Below the pieces are notes generated by a model. The model searched no databases and had not been told where the DNA came from. It was given only the letters and a program-made list of their open reading frames with translations. Both the position numbers and the translations under genes were made by a program. From contig NZ_CP059987.1 of the NCBI RefSeq assembly GCF_014483895.1, positions 1-64,000 on the forward strand: a stretch of DNA of 64,000 nt, in the 5' to 3' direction. This stretch comes from Protaetiibacter sp. SSC-01. GTDB lineage: Bacteria; Actinomycetota; Actinomycetes; Actinomycetales; Microbacteriaceae. Of this stretch, positions 5,266 to 62,378 are shown one piece after another (position 1 is the stretch's first letter; the number at the start of each line of letters is the position of its first letter).

Positions 5266-7278
<2,013 letters not shown>

Positions 7279-17709: not shown

Positions 17710-18504
17710 ATGCCCGGCCGTCGTTCCCTGCGTCCTCGGCGCCGTGTGTCGGTCGTCGGGATCCTCGGCGAGCTGCTCATCACGGGGGGCGTCGTCGTGC
17801 TGCTTTTCATCGGATGGCAGCTCTGGCTGTACGACAGCATCGTCGGCGACGAGCTGCAGGAGCAGGCCACGGCGCAGAGCCGCGAGTGGGACGAGCAGGC
17901 CGCCGCGAACCCCACGCCCACTCCGAGCGACACCCCGAGCGACGGGCCGAACGAGCCGATCTCGGCCGAACCGCCCGTTCAGGCCGCGCCCGCAAAGACG
18001 GAGCAGTTCGCCATGCTCATCGTCCCGCGCTGGGGCGCCGACTACTACCGCCCGATCGCCGAGGGCGTCGGCGTGCACGACGTGCTCAACAAGGGGCTCC
18101 TCGGCCACTACCCGGGCACCCAGATGCCGGGCGAGGTCGGCAACTTCGCGATCGCCGCGCACCGCACGACGAAGGGCGGATCGCTCCACAACATCCACGA
18201 GCTCCAGATCGGCGACCACGTGTACGTCGAGACGGCCGCCGGCTGGTACCGCTACACCTTCCGCAACCTCGAGTACGTGCGCCCGACGGGCGTGGGCGTG
18301 CTCGACCCGGTGCCCCAGGACCAGATGACGCCGCCCTCCGAGCGCTACATCACGATGACGAGCTGCAACCCGATCCTGACCTCCGTCGAGCGGATCATCG
18401 CCTACGGCGTGTACGACGGATTCTTCCCGCGCGATCCCTCGAAGCCCGCCTCGGGTGCACCCGAGGAGATCGCGCCCACGGTGACGGGGACGGTGGCGAG
18501 CTGA
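17710..18504 (+). CDS. srtE: Class E sortase
   Basis: A 264-residue membrane transpeptidase that cuts LAxTG sorting signals and links the protein to the cell wall. A transmembrane anchor lies at residues 16-38, then a Pro/Thr-rich linker. The catalytic residues are His151 (AIAAHRTT), Cys219 (TMTSCNP) and Arg228. Three LAxTG proteins are encoded elsewhere in the window (35137, 43183, 59934), so it probably has local substrates. Its end overlaps the next gene's start (TGATG), so coupling is likely. Confidence 0.92.
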   Translation: MPGRRSLRPRRRVSVVGILGELLITGGVVVLLFIGWQLWLYDSIVGDELQEQATAQSREWDEQAAANPTPTPSDTPSDGPNEPISAEPPVQAAPAKTEQFAMLIVPRWGADYYRPIAEGVGVHDVLNKGLLGHYPGTQMPGEVGNFAIAAHRTTKGGSLHNIHELQIGDHVYVETAAGWYRYTFRNLEYVRPTGVGVLDPVPQDQMTPPSERYITMTSCNPILTSVERIIAYGVYDGFFPRDPSKPASGAPEEIAPTVTGTVAS

Positions 18505-18662
18505 TGTACGGAGCACTGTGGCGCGTGCTGCCCGGACCCTGGTGGGTGCGCACCCTCATCCTGCTCGTGCTCGCCGCGGCGGTGCTCGCGGCTCTCGCCT
18601 TCTGGGTCTTCCCGTGGGTCGACCAGTTCATCAGCCTCCAGGAAGTGACGGTGGACGAATGA
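18504..18662 (+). CDS. Small single-pass membrane protein
   Basis: A 52-residue protein with one transmembrane segment at about residues 17-37 and a short C-terminal tail (FISLQEVTVDE). The ATG overlaps the sortase stop, and its stop overlaps the amidotransferase start by four bases, so the three genes form a tight operon. It could be missed for its size. It resembles small proteins kept at this place in other actinobacteria. Its function is unknown; a partner of the sortase is one possibility. Confidence 0.75.
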   Translation: MYGALWRVLPGPWWVRTLILLVLAAAVLAALAFWVFPWVDQFISLQEVTVDE

Positions 18663-19297
18663 CGCGCGTGCTCGTCGTCGACAACTACGACAGCTTCGTC
18701 TACACGCTCGCCGGCTACCTCGTGCAGCTCGGCGCCGAGATCGAGGTCGTGCGCAACGACGCCTTCGCCGCCGAGGAGTCGGCCGACCGCATCGCCGACT
18801 TCGACGCCGTGCTGCTCTCCCCCGGTCCCGGCACCCCGGGCGCCGCGGGCGTCTCGATCCCGATCGTGCACGCCGCGATCGCATCCGGCGCCCCGCTCCT
18901 CGGCGTGTGCCTCGGCCACCAGGCGATCGCCGAGGCGCTCGGCGCCACGGTCACGCACGCCGAGGAGCTCATGCACGGCAAGACGTCGCTCATCGAGCAC
19001 GACGACTCCCCCTTCTTCGACGGGGTGCCGCAGCCGTTCCGTGCGACCCGCTACCACTCGCTCGCGGTCGTCGACTCGACGGTGCCCGACGAGCTCGAGG
19101 TGACTGCGCGCACCGACGGCGGCATCATCATGGCGCTCCGCCACCGTGAGGCGCCCGTCTACGGCGTGCAGTTCCACCCGGAGTCGGTGCTCACCGAGGG
19201 CGGCTACCGCATGCTCGGCAACTGGCTCGCCGCATCCGGGATGCCGGAGGCGGCCGAGCGCGCCACGGGCCTCAGCCCGCTCGTCAAGCTCTCCTGA
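18659..19297 (+). CDS. pabA: Anthranilate/aminodeoxychorismate synthase glutamine amidotransferase
   Basis: A 212-residue class I glutamine amidotransferase that supplies ammonia to the chorismate-using partner. The catalytic triad is Cys in LLGVCLGHQ near residue 80, and His and Glu in VQFHPES near residue 172. No partner (trpE or pabB) lies in the window, so whether it serves tryptophan or folate synthesis cannot be told. Actinobacteria keep a trpG/pabA gene next to pknB (Rv0013 in M. tuberculosis). It converges on pknB. Confidence 0.9.
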   Translation: MTRVLVVDNYDSFVYTLAGYLVQLGAEIEVVRNDAFAAEESADRIADFDAVLLSPGPGTPGAAGVSIPIVHAAIASGAPLLGVCLGHQAIAEALGATVTHAEELMHGKTSLIEHDDSPFFDGVPQPFRATRYHSLAVVDSTVPDELEVTARTDGGIIMALRHREAPVYGVQFHPESVLTEGGYRMLGNWLAASGMPEAAERATGLSPLVKLS

Positions 19298-33430: not shown

Positions 33431-34060
33431 TCAGTCGGCGAGGATGAGGTACAGCGCGCGGCGCGCCTCGTCGAGCTTCTCGACCGCGGCCGCCCGCTGG
33501 GCGTCGGTCGCCGCGTGATGGAACTGCCCCACGACGCCCATGAGCTTGCCGACGCTCTGCTGGAACGCGAGCTCCTGCTCGCTGCGCTTCGGGGAGCCGG
33601 ACTCCCACGCGCGCTTCAGCTCCTCTCCGTGCTCGGAGACGTAGGTGCGGCCCGCCTCGGTGAGCGTGTACTCGGTGCGCCGGCCCTCGCCGGTCGCCTC
33701 GATGAGCTCCTCGTCGACGAGCTGCTGCAGGGTCGGGTAGACCGAGCCCGGGCTCGGCCGCCATCCGCCGCCCGTGCGCTCGGCGATCGTCTTGATGACG
33801 CTGTAGCCGTTCGACGGGCCCTCGGCGAGCACCGAGAGGATGACGGAGCGGATGTCGCCGCGGCCGGCGCGGCCCTTGCCGCGACCCCAGGGGCCGGGGC
33901 CGAATCCGGGGCCGAAGCCCGGACCGGGGCCGAACGGGGGCATGCCGCGCATGGGGGCGTGCACCCCACGCTCGGCGTGCGGCCCGTGGGCGGCGGGGTT
34001 GGTGGGGTCGTGGTGGAACATGGCGTGGCGCTCGCGGCGCCGGAAGGCCTTGGGGTTCAT
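33431..34060 (-). CDS. PadR-family transcriptional regulator
   Basis: A 209-residue regulator. The N-terminal 60 residues are Gly-, Pro- and His-rich. The winged helix follows (DIRSVILSVLAEGPSNGYSVIK, SVYPTLQQL and GRRTEYTLTEAG), and a C-terminal helical dimerisation region ends at about residue 200. GAAAGGAGAACGATC precedes the ATG at 34060. Two palindromes lie just upstream of the gene and could be its autoregulatory sites. The next plus-strand gene is the first of the surface-protein pair. Its ligand is unknown. Confidence 0.88.
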   Translation of the reverse strand: MNPKAFRRRERHAMFHHDPTNPAAHGPHAERGVHAPMRGMPPFGPGPGFGPGFGPGPWGRGKGRAGRGDIRSVILSVLAEGPSNGYSVIKTIAERTGGGWRPSPGSVYPTLQQLVDEELIEATGEGRRTEYTLTEAGRTYVSEHGEELKRAWESGSPKRSEQELAFQQSVGKLMGVVGQFHHAATDAQRAAAVEKLDEARRALYLILAD

Positions 34061-34087
34061 GATCGTTCTCCTTTCGCAGACCATGAT

Positions 34088-34233: not shown

Positions 34234-35028
34234 ATGGTGCCGACAGACGGCGTCGACAGCGACGCCGTCACCACACGGAGTCACTGGCGCGGCGTGCTCA
34301 TGGGCGCTGCGCTGGCGATGGGTGTCGGCCTCCTCGTGCTCGTCTCGCCGCAACAGGCGCGAGCGGATGACAGCCCCGGCCTCGTGGGAACGCTCGGCTC
34401 CGTCGTGGGCCAGGTCACGTCGACCGTCGAATCCGTCGTCACTCCCGCCGTCGAGCCGCTCCCCGAGCTGCGCGAACTGCCCGTCGTCGGCGGGATCGTC
34501 GGCGACATCGCCGACAGCCGCCCCGTCTCGACCGTCACGGCGCCCATCGCGGGCATCGTCGACCGCGTGCTCGGGGCCGACGTCGTCGCGCCCGTCGTCG
34601 CGCCCGTCGGCGGACTCGTCGACGGCACCCTCGGTGGCCTCGCGGGCGCGCCCGCCGAGCCGGCCGGGCCCCTCGCGCCCACGCCGACCGGCCCGGGCGA
34701 CGACCGGGGTGCGCTCGCGGCCGAGCCGGCCCCCGCATCCGGCACCGCCGCATCCGTCGCGATGCGCCTCGTCCCCCTCCTCAGCAGCGTCGGCGAACTC
34801 GGCATCGCCGTCGCGGCCGGCGCCGAGGGCCCCGACCACGGGCCCGTGAGCATTCCGGGCGGTCTCACGCCCACCTCCGCAGTCACGGCAGGCGGCGCGC
34901 CGATCGGCGCAGCAGCGGCCGTGCTCGGCGCCGGCCTTCTCCTCCTGCTCGCTCGGGGACGCCTGCGCCCCGACGACTTCCGGGCGCCACCGTCGCCCGT
35001 GTACGCCACCGACACCTCGCCCGACTGA
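34234..35028 (+). CDS. Secreted, membrane-anchored protein of unknown family
   Basis: A 264-residue protein with a signal or anchor segment at about residues 19-38, after a 16-residue acidic start, and a C-terminal transmembrane segment at about 232-248 (ending in basic and acidic residues). The mature part is a repetitive, Val/Gly/Pro-rich stretch with PVVG, PVVAPVGG and similar pieces. GGAGG with good spacing supports the ATG at 34234. No LAxTG motif is seen. It sits 108 bp upstream of the chaplin-like gene and probably belongs to the same surface locus. I do not recognise the family. Confidence 0.65.
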   Translation: MVPTDGVDSDAVTTRSHWRGVLMGAALAMGVGLLVLVSPQQARADDSPGLVGTLGSVVGQVTSTVESVVTPAVEPLPELRELPVVGGIVGDIADSRPVSTVTAPIAGIVDRVLGADVVAPVVAPVGGLVDGTLGGLAGAPAEPAGPLAPTPTGPGDDRGALAAEPAPASGTAASVAMRLVPLLSSVGELGIAVAAGAEGPDHGPVSIPGGLTPTSAVTAGGAPIGAAAAVLGAGLLLLLARGRLRPDDFRAPPSPVYATDTSPD

Positions 35029-35136
35029 CGTCCGACGAGTCCGCCCGCCGCGCATCCGCGGTCGGTGCGGGCACACGCGTCCCGTCGCATCCGTCCGGAT
35101 GCGGCGCATCAGTCGATCAGGCAAGGAGCCGAAGCA

Positions 35137-36585
35137 ATGAACAAGTACGTCTCTCGAGGGCTGTGGACGGTCCTCGTAACGGGGGGCTTCATGGCCCTCG
35201 GAGTCGGCGTCGCGCACGCCGACACGGCAACATCCGGGGAAGACGGCGTGGTCTCGGGCACGCAGGGCATCCTCGGCATCGAGCTGCCCGTGCAGCTCGG
35301 CGGCAACGCCATCTCGATCCTCGGCGACGCCGAGAGCTCGGGCGCCGCGACGACCGCGCCCGCGCAGGGCTCGGCGCCGACGGGGGGCACGAGCGGAACG
35401 GATGCGATCGCATCCGGCACGCAGCTGCTCACCGATCTCGGGGTGCCGGTGACGCTCGGCGGGAACGCGATCTCGGTGCTCGGCGACGCGTCGACGTCGG
35501 GTGCGGATACGACGCCGACGGGTACCGGTGACGGCAGCGCCGGCGCGGGCTCGGGCTCGACCGACGGAACCGACGGCATCCTCGGCGGCAGCCAGGTGCT
35601 CGCCGACCTCGGGGTGCCCGTGACGCTCGGCGGCAACGCCATCTCGGTGCTCGGAGACGCGTCGACCGCGAGCGCGGACACGACGCCGGCCGCGACCGGC
35701 GGTGCCGGTGCGGAGGGAGCCGAGGGCTCGACCGACGGAACCGACGGCACGCTCTCGGGCACGCAGGTGCTCGCCGACCTCGGGGTGCCGGTGACGCTCG
35801 GCGGCAATGCCATCTCGGTGCTCGGTGACGCGTCGACCGCGGGCGCGGACACGACGCCGACGGGAGCCGGTGACGCGACCGCCGACGGGGGCTCGGGCTC
35901 GACCGACGGCACCGACGGGATCCTCGGCGGCAGCCAGGTGCTCGCCGACCTCGGGGTGCCCGTGACGCTCGGGGGCAACGCCATCTCGGTGCTCGGTGAC
36001 GCCTCGACGGCGGGTGCCGACACGACGCCCGCCGCGACCGGCGGTGCTGGTGCGGAGGGAGCCGAGGGCTCGACCGACGGCACCGACGGCATCCTCGGCG
36101 GCACGCAGGTGCTGCTCGATCCGGTGGTGCCGGTGACGCTCGGCGGCAACGCGATCTCGGTGCTCGGTGACGCGTCGACGTCGGGCGCGGACACGACGCC
36201 GGCGGGAGCCGGTGACGGCAGCGCCGGCGGGGGCTCGGGCTCGACCGACGGAACCGACAGCATCCTCGGCGGCACGCAGGTGCTGCTCGATCCGGTGCTG
36301 CCGGTGACGCTCGGCGGCAACGCCATCTCGGTGCTCGGTGACGCGACGACGGGCAGCTCGACCACGGGAACCGACCCGGGCACGGACCCGGGCACGGACC
36401 CGGGCACGGATCCGGGCAGCGACCCCGACGGCACCCAGGTCCCGAGCTACGCGCTCGCGGATGACGGGATCGCGGCGCTCGCTCCCACGGGCGCCGAGGG
36501 CGGCATCACCGCGGTCGCCCTCGCCGCGATCGCATTCCTCGCGGGCCTGCTCATGGTGCGCCGCACGGCGCTCCGCCGGCGCTGA
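35137..36585 (+). CDS. Chaplin-like repeat surface protein with a LAxTG anchor
   Basis: A 482-residue secreted protein. The signal peptide ends AHAD near residue 28, a common chaplin cleavage pattern. Seven repeats of about 57 residues follow, each with SGTQVLADLGVPVTLGGNAI-type sequence that lines up with the chaplin core (SGN..VPVNVCGN..NVVG), but with Gly in place of the conserved Cys. A DPGT-repeat linker follows. The end is LAPTG (36478-36492), a hydrophobic segment and RTALRRR, a class E sortase signal. Long chaplins are SrtE substrates in Streptomyces. The function is probably a surface amyloid or adhesion layer. Confidence 0.8.
   Translation: MNKYVSRGLWTVLVTGGFMALGVGVAHADTATSGEDGVVSGTQGILGIELPVQLGGNAISILGDAESSGAATTAPAQGSAPTGGTSGTDAIASGTQLLTDLGVPVTLGGNAISVLGDASTSGADTTPTGTGDGSAGAGSGSTDGTDGILGGSQVLADLGVPVTLGGNAISVLGDASTASADTTPAATGGAGAEGAEGSTDGTDGTLSGTQVLADLGVPVTLGGNAISVLGDASTAGADTTPTGAGDATADGGSGSTDGTDGILGGSQVLADLGVPVTLGGNAISVLGDASTAGADTTPAATGGAGAEGAEGSTDGTDGILGGTQVLLDPVVPVTLGGNAISVLGDASTSGADTTPAGAGDGSAGGGSGSTDGTDSILGGTQVLLDPVLPVTLGGNAISVLGDATTGSSTTGTDPGTDPGTDPGTDPGSDPDGTQVPSYALADDGIAALAPTGAEGGITAVALAAIAFLAGLLMVRRTALRRR
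35254..36360 (+). repeat. Seven tandem chaplin-like repeats, about 171 bp each
   Basis: Seven in-frame repeats of about 57 codons, with the core PVTLGGNAISVLGDAST. Copies 2 to 6 are near-identical at the DNA level, and copies 3 and 5 share the same variable spacer (TPAATGGAGAEGAEGS), as do 2, 4 and 6 in part. The alternating spacers suggest recent two-unit duplication, and the tract is a likely hotspot for copy-number change. Confidence 0.85.
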
Positions 36586-56618: not shown

Positions 56619-56744
56619 GCCAAACGCTGCAGCGCTTGGCGTCGCGCGGCAGGAACCTCAGCCGCGCACAGGCAACCGCTGCAGCGCTTGGCCTCACGCG
56701 GCAGGGATCTCAGCCGCACACAGCCAACCGCTGCAGCGTTGTGC
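56619..56744. repeat. Palindromic repeat family 2, three tandem copies (52-bp period)
   Basis: Palindromes with the core CGCTGCAGCG start at 56619, 56671 and 56723, exactly 52 bp apart. The spacers are similar (CGCGGCAGG, CTCAGCCGC), so these are true tandem repeats, 2.4 copies. They fill the gap between the epimerase and M13 genes, ending 14 bases before the M13 start. Confidence 0.85.
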
Positions 56745-59933: not shown

Positions 59934-62378
59934 GTGCTGAAGAAGTTCCTCGCGACGTTCGTCGCCGTCCTGCTCACCCTCGGCCTCTCCCTCGTGGCCA
60001 CGTCCCCCGCGGTCGCCGCATCCGACGGCAGGCCCAGCCCCGGCAAGGGCTCGAGCGACCATCGCTCGGGCGACAACCGCTACGGCGGGTCGAACGACGG
60101 CACCAAGTCGTCGACACCGCCGAAGCAGACTCAGGCACCTGCACCGGCACCCGCTCCGACCCCGGCGAAGTTGAGCCCCGCGCCCGCGCCGAGCCCGACG
60201 AAGAGCACGCCGCCCGCGCAGCAGAAGTCGACCGGGCCGTCGACGCAGCGGAAGTCGACGACGTCGACCCCTCAGAAGTCGAGCACCTCGACGAAGTCGA
60301 CGACGCCGACGAAGCTCTACGGCGTCGCGATCTACGTCTACAAGAAGCTCGACCCGACGAAGGATGCGTCGTGGTCGAACTCGGGTCCGCAGAAGCTCCT
60401 CCTCCAGGACGTCGACAACACGAGCAAGGAGACCAACACCTGGTACACCTCGCTCGACCCGGCGCTCCTCGGTGACATCTGCGGCCCCGGCTGGGCCGTT
60501 CAGCAGGACAAGGTGTCGTTCACCGGCTCCTTCTCCTTCCCGTCGGCGATCACCCCGCCGGCCGACAACATCGGCTGGCCGCCGCTCTACGACGCCAAGC
60601 ACCAGAACCTCGAGAAGCTCGTCCAGGTGCCGACCTGCGCCCCGCCGCCGGCGCCGTGCATCGACACGTCGGCCGTGAGCTACACCTACGACGCGGCGAC
60701 CAACAGCGGCGTCATCACCGTCGCCCCGCGAGACGGGTCGAACGGCCGGCTCTGCAAGCCCTTCTACGTGACTGCCACGAGCTGGAAGTACCTCACGGCC
60801 GCGGCCTGGCCGCAGAAGCTCGACCAGGTGCAGAAGCTCGGCCCCATCTCGGAGCCCGGCAGCTACCCCTACTCCGCACCGGTGACGTGCGGCCAGGGCG
60901 ACATCTACGCCTCGTGGTCGGCCGACGACCCGACGCTCGACCCCACGCCTTACCTCTACGGACCCGACAGCCCCTTCGACGAGAAGTTCCTGCACGACAT
61001 GGGCTTCACGGGCACGAAGCCGACGTACATGAACACGCAGTTCGGCTGCAACGTGCTCACGGTCGACGTGCCGAGCACTCCCCCGAGCTGCGAGGCCGAC
61101 GGCGGCTACACGCTGCCCGAGGTCGAGCACGTCACCTGGCACGTGGGCGGCGCGGCGGTCGAGCCGGGCGACTACACGGCGAGGGCGGGCGACGAGGTCG
61201 CGATCACGGCCGTCGCCGACGAGACGTGGGTGCTCAAGGGTGGCAAGAAGGACAAGACGTCGAACCTCTGGACGCTCACCTGGACCCTCGACTTCCCCGA
61301 GCCGGAGTGCGAGCAGGCGCGCGCGGTCGTGCCGAAGTTCGAATGGGAGAACCTCTCGTGCGACGCCGAGGCGGGCGGCAGCTACACGCTGCCCGACATC
61401 TCCGGCGTGACCTGGCTCGTCGACGGCCTCCAGGCAGACCCCGACACCTACACGGTGACCGGGCCCCGCACGGTGAACGTCCAGGCGGTGCCCGACCAGT
61501 CGAACGGTCCCGTGGTCTTCCCCGGGGACGCGAAGACCACCTGGACTCTCAAGTTCACGGCCTCCTCCGACTGCCTCACCCTTACGGGCTCGAGCGTCAC
61601 CGGCACGTGCGAGGCGGACTCCCCCTGGATCCACTACACGGTCACCCTCACCGACCCGTATGACCAGAGCACGACCCGCGACGCGCGCCTCATTCTGGCC
61701 GCGAACGGTGAGAGCGTCACGCTCGACCTCGGCACGATCCCCGACGGCGCGACGACGCTGACCGGCAAGGTGCTCTGGCCCGGTGCGAGCGTCGACCCCG
61801 ACACGGGTGCGGCCAACGGCTGGCCCGGGTGGGAGCTCGTGGGCGGCGAATGGCGGCCGACGCCGGGCAACTACGCGTGGACGCGCGTCATCACCGACGC
61901 GACGCTCGAGGTGAACCCGTCGCTCGTCGTCTCACTCACCTACCCGCCGGCCACACCCGACTGCGACACGCAGCCGCCGCAGGACCCGCCGACCCTCGGC
62001 TCGTTCCCGACCAACGCACAGCTCGCCGAGCAGTGCACGGCCGACGGCCGCGCCGTGCTCACCCTCGGCCTCCTCGACGGGGTCTCGTTCTTCGAGGACG
62101 TGAACTACTTCATCGACGGCGTGCCGGCCGCGAGCTCGACGGTGGCCCTCTCCCCCGGCACCTACCGGGTGACGGTGACCGTCAAGAACCCGAGCGACGG
62201 ACTCGACGGCCCCACGGCGTGGAACGTCACCGTCCGCGGCGGCGACGTCTGCGGTGAGCTCGAGACCCTCGCGCTCACCGGCTTCGACGGCGGCTACCTC
62301 GTGGCGCTCGCGGCGATGATGCTCGCTGCAGGCGCGGCGATCCTGGTCACCGGCCGCCGCCAGCGAGAGGCCGACTGA
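59934..62378 (+). CDS. Large secreted surface protein with a LAxTG anchor
   Basis: An 814-residue protein. A signal peptide ends near ATSPAVAASDG (about residue 29). A Pro/Ser/Thr/Lys-rich linker fills about 30-125. A region of several beta-sandwich-like units with CxxC and Cys pairs follows (for example near residues 385-420 and 460-500). The end is LALTG (62268-62282), a hydrophobic helix and GRRQREAD, a class E sortase signal. I do not recognise the unit families. AAGGA eight bases upstream supports the GTG start. It is likely cell-wall anchored. Confidence 0.8.
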   Translation: MLKKFLATFVAVLLTLGLSLVATSPAVAASDGRPSPGKGSSDHRSGDNRYGGSNDGTKSSTPPKQTQAPAPAPAPTPAKLSPAPAPSPTKSTPPAQQKSTGPSTQRKSTTSTPQKSSTSTKSTTPTKLYGVAIYVYKKLDPTKDASWSNSGPQKLLLQDVDNTSKETNTWYTSLDPALLGDICGPGWAVQQDKVSFTGSFSFPSAITPPADNIGWPPLYDAKHQNLEKLVQVPTCAPPPAPCIDTSAVSYTYDAATNSGVITVAPRDGSNGRLCKPFYVTATSWKYLTAAAWPQKLDQVQKLGPISEPGSYPYSAPVTCGQGDIYASWSADDPTLDPTPYLYGPDSPFDEKFLHDMGFTGTKPTYMNTQFGCNVLTVDVPSTPPSCEADGGYTLPEVEHVTWHVGGAAVEPGDYTARAGDEVAITAVADETWVLKGGKKDKTSNLWTLTWTLDFPEPECEQARAVVPKFEWENLSCDAEAGGSYTLPDISGVTWLVDGLQADPDTYTVTGPRTVNVQAVPDQSNGPVVFPGDAKTTWTLKFTASSDCLTLTGSSVTGTCEADSPWIHYTVTLTDPYDQSTTRDARLILAANGESVTLDLGTIPDGATTLTGKVLWPGASVDPDTGAANGWPGWELVGGEWRPTPGNYAWTRVITDATLEVNPSLVVSLTYPPATPDCDTQPPQDPPTLGSFPTNAQLAEQCTADGRAVLTLGLLDGVSFFEDVNYFIDGVPAASSTVALSPGTYRVTVTVKNPSDGLDGPTAWNVTVRGGDVCGELETLALTGFDGGYLVALAAMMLAAGAAILVTGRRQREAD

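Follow-up and report, generated by a model that had tools for sequence, protein, structure and literature searches.

A cysteine-free, seven-repeat chaplin-like wall protein and its conserved Pro-Asp-tailed neighbour: a putative two-gene surface module in Microbacteriaceae and related families

Introduction

Discussion of chaplins has mostly centred on their role as a coat on aerial hyphae, and Microbacteriaceae and the neighbouring families are mostly rods without aerial mycelium. The window analysed here, 64,000 nucleotides from the start of contig NZ_CP059987.1 of Protaetiibacter sp. SSC-01, encodes a chaplin-like protein with seven repeats, no cysteine, and a predicted wall anchor (gene 2), preceded by a gene for a presumably exported protein of 264 residues (gene 1) (Table 1). 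The locus raises the question of whether gene 2 encodes a true relative of the chaplins, whether its unusual form is peculiar to this organism, and what the neighbouring gene has to do with it.

Table 1. Features of the two-gene locus, the presumed anchoring enzyme, and the downstream proteins of loci with a different repeat type
Feature	Position	Strand	Remarks
Gene 1, partner of 264 aa, with a signal/TM helix, a body rich in Val/Pro (helical in the model), and a Pro-Asp tail at the C-terminus	34234..35028	+	
Partner signal peptide region, ending in ARA, putative cleavage site	34234..34365	+	A42 and A44 conserved; modelled helix 14-37
Partner hydrophobic helix before the tail	34903..34953	+	
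Conserved partner tail; commonest residues among relatives DDLPSSPVFDTDVSPD, then stop	34978..35025	+	
Gene 2, chaplin-like anchored protein of 482 aa with seven repeats and without Cys	35137..36585	+	Pfam ChpA-C, 49.2 bits
Chaplin-like signal peptide MNKYVSRGLWTVLVTGGFMALGVGVAHA of gene 2	35137..35220	+	Putative cleavage site
Gene 2 repeat core 1	35254..35334	+	
Gene 2 repeat core 2	35413..35493	+	
Gene 2 repeat core 3	35584..35664	+	
Gene 2 repeat core 4	35755..35835	+	
Gene 2 repeat core 5	35926..36006	+	
Gene 2 repeat core 6	36097..36177	+	
Gene 2 repeat core 7	36268..36348	+	
GTDP linker of gene 2, 12-bp repeat, presumed wall-spanning	36359..36425	+	TRF
Gene 2 sorting signal: LAPTG, hydrophobic helix, RRTALRRR	36478..36582	+	
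Class E sortase, the single Pfam sortase detected in the genome, presumed to carry out the anchoring	17710..18504	+	
Downstream protein of L250 and L251			VDSLVGD-type repeats
Downstream protein of L252			LPGLPGD-type repeats; truncated where the stretch ends
Downstream protein of L253			VDLLGDEQ-type repeats, GTD linker
Downstream protein of L254			VDDLLG/VTVGG-type repeats
Downstream proteins of L257 and L258			Ser/Thr/Glu-rich

Results and Discussion

The anchored protein as a distant relative of the long chaplins

According to our analysis, the core GGNAIS occurs seven times in the product of gene 2, at residues 55, 108, 165, 222, 279, 336, and 393; the cores are spaced by 53 residues once and by 57 thereafter, followed by a single LAPTG motif at residue 448. 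Tandem repeat analysis by TRF scored the array 1238 at a period of 171 bp and 1509 at 342 bp, and this longer best period fits pairwise duplication of the repeats, of which numbers 2 to 7 share 63 to 94 percent identity over 171 bp. The mature chain (residues 29 to 440) contains 48 D/E and no K, R, or H and, with a GRAVY of 0.10, is not strongly hydrophobic. Elsewhere in the window, tandem repeats were seen at 56619-56738 (52 bp, 2.3 copies) and 60217-60314 (18 to 24 bp).

The Pfam model ChpA-C (PF03777) matches gene 2 with 49.2 bits (curated cut-off, 21), a score summed over weak repeats none of which reaches an E value of 0.001 on its own; at a limit of E 10, six stretches are found. The best of them covers profile positions 7 to 46 of 57, so that the end of the chaplin domain, which carries the third GN motif and the second Cys, is unmatched in gene 2. 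In all seven repeats the first Cys position of the core is occupied by Gly, and only the middle one of the three GN motifs is retained. All 17 members of alignment A3 match ChpA-C as well (best E 4e-30), and the signal peptide of gene 2 resembles those of long chaplins from Streptomyces-like genomes (R-x-G-L ... AHAD), for example MRQVTRKGLMTVAAATGVLAAAGGYAHADS in L222. The properties assigned to this protein by the initial annotation, namely, seven repeats without Cys, Gly at the conserved Cys of the chaplin core, and a chaplin-type signal combined with an LAxTG anchor, are all borne out, the last by the LAPTG motif together with a class E sortase in the genome, and the ChpA-C profile search that it had proposed gave a clear match, so that the lack of such a match, named there among the refuting outcomes, did not come about. 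RTX-like calcium-binding repeats were considered for gene 2 and rejected, ChpA-C being the sole Pfam match listed up to E 10. No relative of solved structure was found, the top match (E 0.35) being an unrelated enzyme, and no copy was present among 72,556 plasmid records.

When stretches were searched one at a time across the whole genome, two places reached E 0.001, both at the gene 2 locus, and no ChpA-C match that would indicate a short chaplin was found elsewhere at this limit, although a diverged short chaplin could escape such a search since the single repeats of gene 2 themselves score near the limit.

Judged by its sequence, the gene 2 product is a distant, Cys-free homologue of the long chaplins of Streptomyces with an LAxTG-type sortase signal. 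The ChpA-C long chaplins of Streptomyces coelicolor are described as sortase anchored (PMC3079736), and the Pfam domain, the R-x-G-L ... AHAD signal peptide, and the LAxTG-type sorting signal are common to them and gene 2. They differ in having two repeats, Cys, three GN motifs per repeat, and the full domain end, where gene 2 has seven, none, one, and no such end; of the strict long-chaplin features, gene 2 therefore lacks the two Cys per domain, the three GN motifs per domain, and the two-domain build, and has what is predicted to be the C-terminal sorting signal, with a matching sortase in the genome. Unlike the S. coelicolor proteins, gene 2 is also tied to a partner gene, and the genome holds no other ChpA-C match at E 0.001.

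Cys-free chaplin domains are described in Streptomyces too, in ChpE and in the second domain of ChpB (PMC3079736, PMC7766987, PMC13251363), the latter being a known exception to the two-Cys rule (PMC13251363). ChpE is without both Cys, yet it is reported to form fibrils in vitro, as reduced chaplins do (PMC3079736), so the missing Cys is no argument against amyloid in gene 2. The likeness to gene 2 ends there, as ChpE is a short, single-domain protein without the long-chaplin sorting signal. Outside Streptomyces, CwpA and CwpB of Actinoplanes missouriensis are presented as SrtE-dependent hydrophobic wall proteins, and they differ from gene 2 in having, by their authors' conclusion, no chaplin domain (PMC13251363). 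In 2013, a chaplin-like protein was described from Arthrobacter chlorophenolicus, an organism without sporulation (PMC4255298); we saw neither a partner nor a Cys-free multi-repeat form in its description. Among the matches listed for chaplins and class E sortases in the literature, titles and abstract openings likewise mention neither the partner nor a multi-repeat Cys-free form.

The class E sortase scores 224.5 bits (cut-off, 160). LAxTG is the motif of class E sortases, and of the 72 named relatives whose frame is complete and whose start could be aligned, 65 have LAxTG and 2 have LPxTG, with no motif in the last 65 residues of the remaining 5. The enzyme occurs in 229 of the 249 family genomes, so its presence says little and is no mark of the module. 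In several relatives the sortase gene is placed about 14 to 15 kb into contig 1. Within 17710-19297, the sortase is followed by a gene that we take, from its look, to encode a glutamine amidotransferase of the anthranilate or aminodeoxychorismate synthase type.

Spread of the Cys-free form among relatives

An anchored-protein profile (A2), the rows of which had been picked with ChpA-C or for their similarity to the protein of the window, matched 78 of 249 Microbacteriaceae genomes in 31 of 85 genera. Across the order it matched 49 of 327 genomes, from the window's family and four others. Pfam ChpA-C alone matched 53 of the 249 family genomes and 67 of 296 genomes of the class. All nine genomes of the window's genus gave a match, which in G127 and G252 lay at the linker only, so that seven, the window's included, were counted; the partner is present in these seven.

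At the Cys position of 515 repeats from the 80 named loci, which are the best 80 of 149, we found Gly in 440, Ser in 54, Ala in 10, Val in 5, Thr in 3, Leu in 2, Phe in 1, and Cys in none, Gly being favoured by construction in one repeat per locus since the retrieval pattern required one Gly core in each. The named proteins carry 3 to 10 repeats (median, 7), some being cut by contig ends, and the mature part is Cys-free in 66 of the 67 in which it could be measured. Two Cys were seen in the mature anchored protein of L117 (Herbiconiux), and L254 has Cys inside its odd repeats. Among the Micrococcales loci L080 to L109, the core pattern was matched in 25 of 30, and Cys was present in none of these. 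The best ChpA-C matches at the class level, in 27 loci from large genomes that are Streptomyces-like in size and in their number of matches, have the core Cys in the domains caught by the pattern, except L219 and L221, where Ser takes this position in the second domain of each.

By these counts, the absence of Cys is not special to gene 2 but is the usual form among its relatives. The initial annotation had regarded a seven-repeat, Cys-free, anchored protein as a new form and had called for a comparison with Microbacteriaceae homologues; that comparison does not bear out the claim, the form being the one usually taken by the relatives, which occur in about a third of the Microbacteriaceae genomes and also in further families of the order.

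The nearest named relatives (among the best 80 of 149) are Protaetiibacter mangrovi and Homoserinibacter, which places the window in Microbacteriaceae, and other holders in the same set include Agromyces, Microbacterium, Agreia, Herbiconiux, Okibacterium, Frigoribacterium, Knoellia, and Janibacter. In the core, over the 19 sequences of A2, P51, P104, G63, and G116 are invariant, and N110 and D117 are conserved in at least 90 percent. From the 20 family loci L049 to L068, A1 (the partner profile) was made without L053, L054, L058, and L065; A2 without L054 and L068; and A3 without L053, L054, L065, and L068. Alignment A5 comprises 37 of 78 usable named loci and the window. In L054 (same genus, at about 6675-6820) and in L241, the frame of the anchored protein is split into two overlapping pieces, through either sequencing error or repeat slippage. 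A Microbacteriaceae-type anchored protein was also seen on a contig of a Fulvimarina (Alphaproteobacteria) metagenome bin (L149), which is probably mis-binned.

The partner protein and its linkage to gene 2

Nothing in the locus is as constant as the end of the partner. Pro-Asp directly before the stop codon closes 78 of 78 named partners versus 5 of 2727 other open reading frames of at least 150 aa in the same loci; 54 of the partners end in SPD, as the window's does, 20 in TPD, 3 in RPD, and 1 in CPD. Other tails were found outside the named set, in L053 (SPA), L065 (TPG), and L255 (SPA). Part of the partner seed alignment was first chosen by the PD tail, and the profile consequently leans toward it. 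The body is poorly conserved, with a mean column identity of 26 percent, and the hydrophobic helix before the tail exceeds the threshold in only 4 of 78 named loci, all close relatives of the window.

The window's partner has no match in Pfam or NCBIfam up to E 0.01, the only ones (E 0.14 and 0.19) being far below cut-off. The partner alignment A6 has 43 members, drawn from 42 of 76 loci plus the window, L115 having been dropped because no start could be assigned to it. Of its members, five Pfam models each hit a single one (best E 4e-5) and five NCBIfam models each hit one or two (best E 1e-4); judging by E values and not by curated cut-offs, we take these for low-complexity matches and not for signs of family membership.

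Genes 1 and 2 are separated by 108 bases. Among 65 genomes with both profile matches, the distance between them was obtained in 56 and is 70 to 218 nt (median, 104.5). Profile A1 matched 70 of 249 family genomes and 37 of 327 genomes of the order. In the family, 65 genomes hold both proteins, 13 the anchored protein only, 5 the partner only, and 166 neither, giving a Fisher p of 2.6e-40, which overstates the association since the genomes are related. The partner lies upstream in 78 of the 80 named loci (best 80 of 149), the two misses beginning at a contig edge, and in 20 of 20 family loci L049 to L068, several of which come from the same genomes as named loci and are not independent. In all 10 loci examined from the 13 anchored-only genomes (all but G173, G199, and G244), a reading frame ending in PD stands directly upstream (eight found by profile A6, one, L247, by its tail, and one, L249, by eye), so these genomes are mostly first-look misses. 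Of the five partner-only genomes, all but G098 and G113 were examined. A search of 28 genomes from two ChpA-C-rich families, one of them Streptomyces-like, which doubles as a control, gave no partner match in 26 and weak ones in two (E 7e-6 and 4e-4).

This conserved gene order strongly supports the suggestion, already made for the 264-residue neighbour, that it is a partner of gene 2. The ordinary reading would take gene 2 as another chaplin-domain protein beside an unrelated gene; the domain is indeed already recognised by Pfam, and a chaplin-like protein is reported in the non-sporulating A. chlorophenolicus (PMC4255298), but we deem this reading very improbable, as the gene order and the Pro-Asp tail go far beyond chance, and an unrelated neighbour is already hard to uphold. 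Taken alone, the anchored protein is one more member of a common branch, and the newer part is the partner gene.

No plus-strand promoter and no terminator that would support or split an operon was found for the two genes. A promoter-like site was seen on the minus strand (34113-34086), by a gene (33431-34084, minus strand) divergent from the module, which we take from its look to encode a PadR-like regulator with a Gly/Pro/Phe-rich N-terminus.

The rodlins RdlA and RdlB are secreted and are described as organising the fibres of chaplins (PMC7766987). The partner might work similarly, with no claim that it is a rodlin; it differs in being modelled as helical, in its Val/Pro-rich composition, and in its Pro-Asp tail.

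Loci with a different downstream protein

In seven loci, L250 to L254, L257, and L258, a partner matched with E values of 2e-19 to 8e-59 is followed by a different acidic repeat protein, of non-GGN type, with a similar signal peptide (Table 1). LxxTG stands near the C-terminus in L250, L251, L253, and L254, and none was seen in the downstream proteins of L257 and L258. A Pfam scan of five of the seven proteins found no ChpA-C; its matches were to collagen-like linkers (two proteins) and to an LPXTG anchor (one protein). L252, L253, L254, and L258 have weak A2 scores (E 7e-4 to 1e-7), and APVSLGGVTVTG in L257 resembles a chaplin core without Asn. Some of these proteins may thus be diverged chaplin repeats and not replacements, which tempers a reading in terms of exchange.

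In the signal peptide, G17 is present in all 78 aligned named relatives and R7 in 77 of them. We tentatively put forward, as an idea that is possible though not probable, that the Pro-Asp family, which has no name in Pfam or NCBIfam, would be a dedicated export or assembly factor of Micrococcales surface fibres; it would recognise, via the shared signal peptide, an exchangeable acidic repeat client that is usually wall anchored, Cys-free chaplin repeats being the commonest and others being substituted in several genera. One could go further and make the partner the functional centre, for instance as an envelope component involved in sensing or shaping the wall, with the downstream protein as a variable accessory. 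Its persistence while the downstream type changes (L250 to L254, L257, and L258) would agree with this, as would the constancy of the PD tail, but the partner's body shows little conservation and a signal-bearing repeat protein stands downstream in every locus examined, and we find such a role for the partner improbable.

Predicted structure and proposed function

AlphaFold2 models four to five short strands in each gene 2 repeat with low confidence (pLDDT 44.1) and, with middling confidence (pLDDT 61.6), helices at residues 50-73, 85-94, 98-113, and 119-136 of the partner; the models of both proteins are hints only. On an AGGRESCAN-type scale, gene 2 has 54 residues in aggregation hot spots versus 35.3 +/- 8.6 in shuffled sequences (highest, 72), and its cores score 0.12 versus 0.19 for Streptomyces-type cores. 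In hydropathy the cores are comparable, with a GRAVY of 0.73 in the window and a mean of 0.60 in Streptomyces-type cores (n = 46). For ChpH, the rodlet surface is reported to be made by a region close to the C-terminus (PMC7766987).

With moderate confidence, we read the locus as a two-gene surface module, in which a self-associating acidic repeat fibre would be displayed on the wall and the partner would aid its export or assembly. Both products would be exported by Sec, and the class E sortase would cut LAPT-G and join the gene 2 product to the wall. The beta-prone repeats, spaced by acidic Gly/Ser/Thr linkers without a basic residue, could then associate laterally to give a fibrous, anionic-amphipathic coat, which might aid attachment, wetting, or water retention, and the lack of disulphides might allow a looser assembly. 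Since each chain carries many units, separate short chaplins may be unneeded; with its seven units, and with ChpA-C matched nowhere else in the genome at E 0.001, the protein could form a self-contained coat. The partner might keep the repeats soluble during export or seed their assembly, as a chaperone or assembly factor.

Counted against a fibre are the pLDDT values of both models, the modest excess of hot spots, the lower aggregation scores of the window's cores, the missing end of the chaplin domain, and the mature chain, which is acidic and not strongly hydrophobic. The main alternative is a non-amyloid acidic brush, i.e., a flexible, negatively charged wall protein that would act as an adhesin or in a capsule-like manner, the chaplin likeness being ancestral and assembly having been lost. 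The mature chain without basic residues and of low hydrophobicity would suit such a brush, as would the loss of the domain end and of both Cys and the seven loci that pair the partner with repeats of other composition, from which the chaplin motif itself may be non-essential. On the other hand, the core is well kept over the 19 A2 sequences, as a mere spacer would not need to be, and its hydropathy is like that of Streptomyces-type cores. We regard the brush as somewhat unlikely.

If the two-gene module with a self-associating fibre is the correct reading, the Pro-Asp partner would offer a new handle on the export and wall deposition of self-associating repeat proteins in Gram-positive bacteria. 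The widespread Cys-free, many-repeat branch to which gene 2 belongs fits the idea that attachment possibly preceded aerial growth in the history of these proteins, as discussed in PMC4255298, and this idea becomes testable outside Streptomyces.
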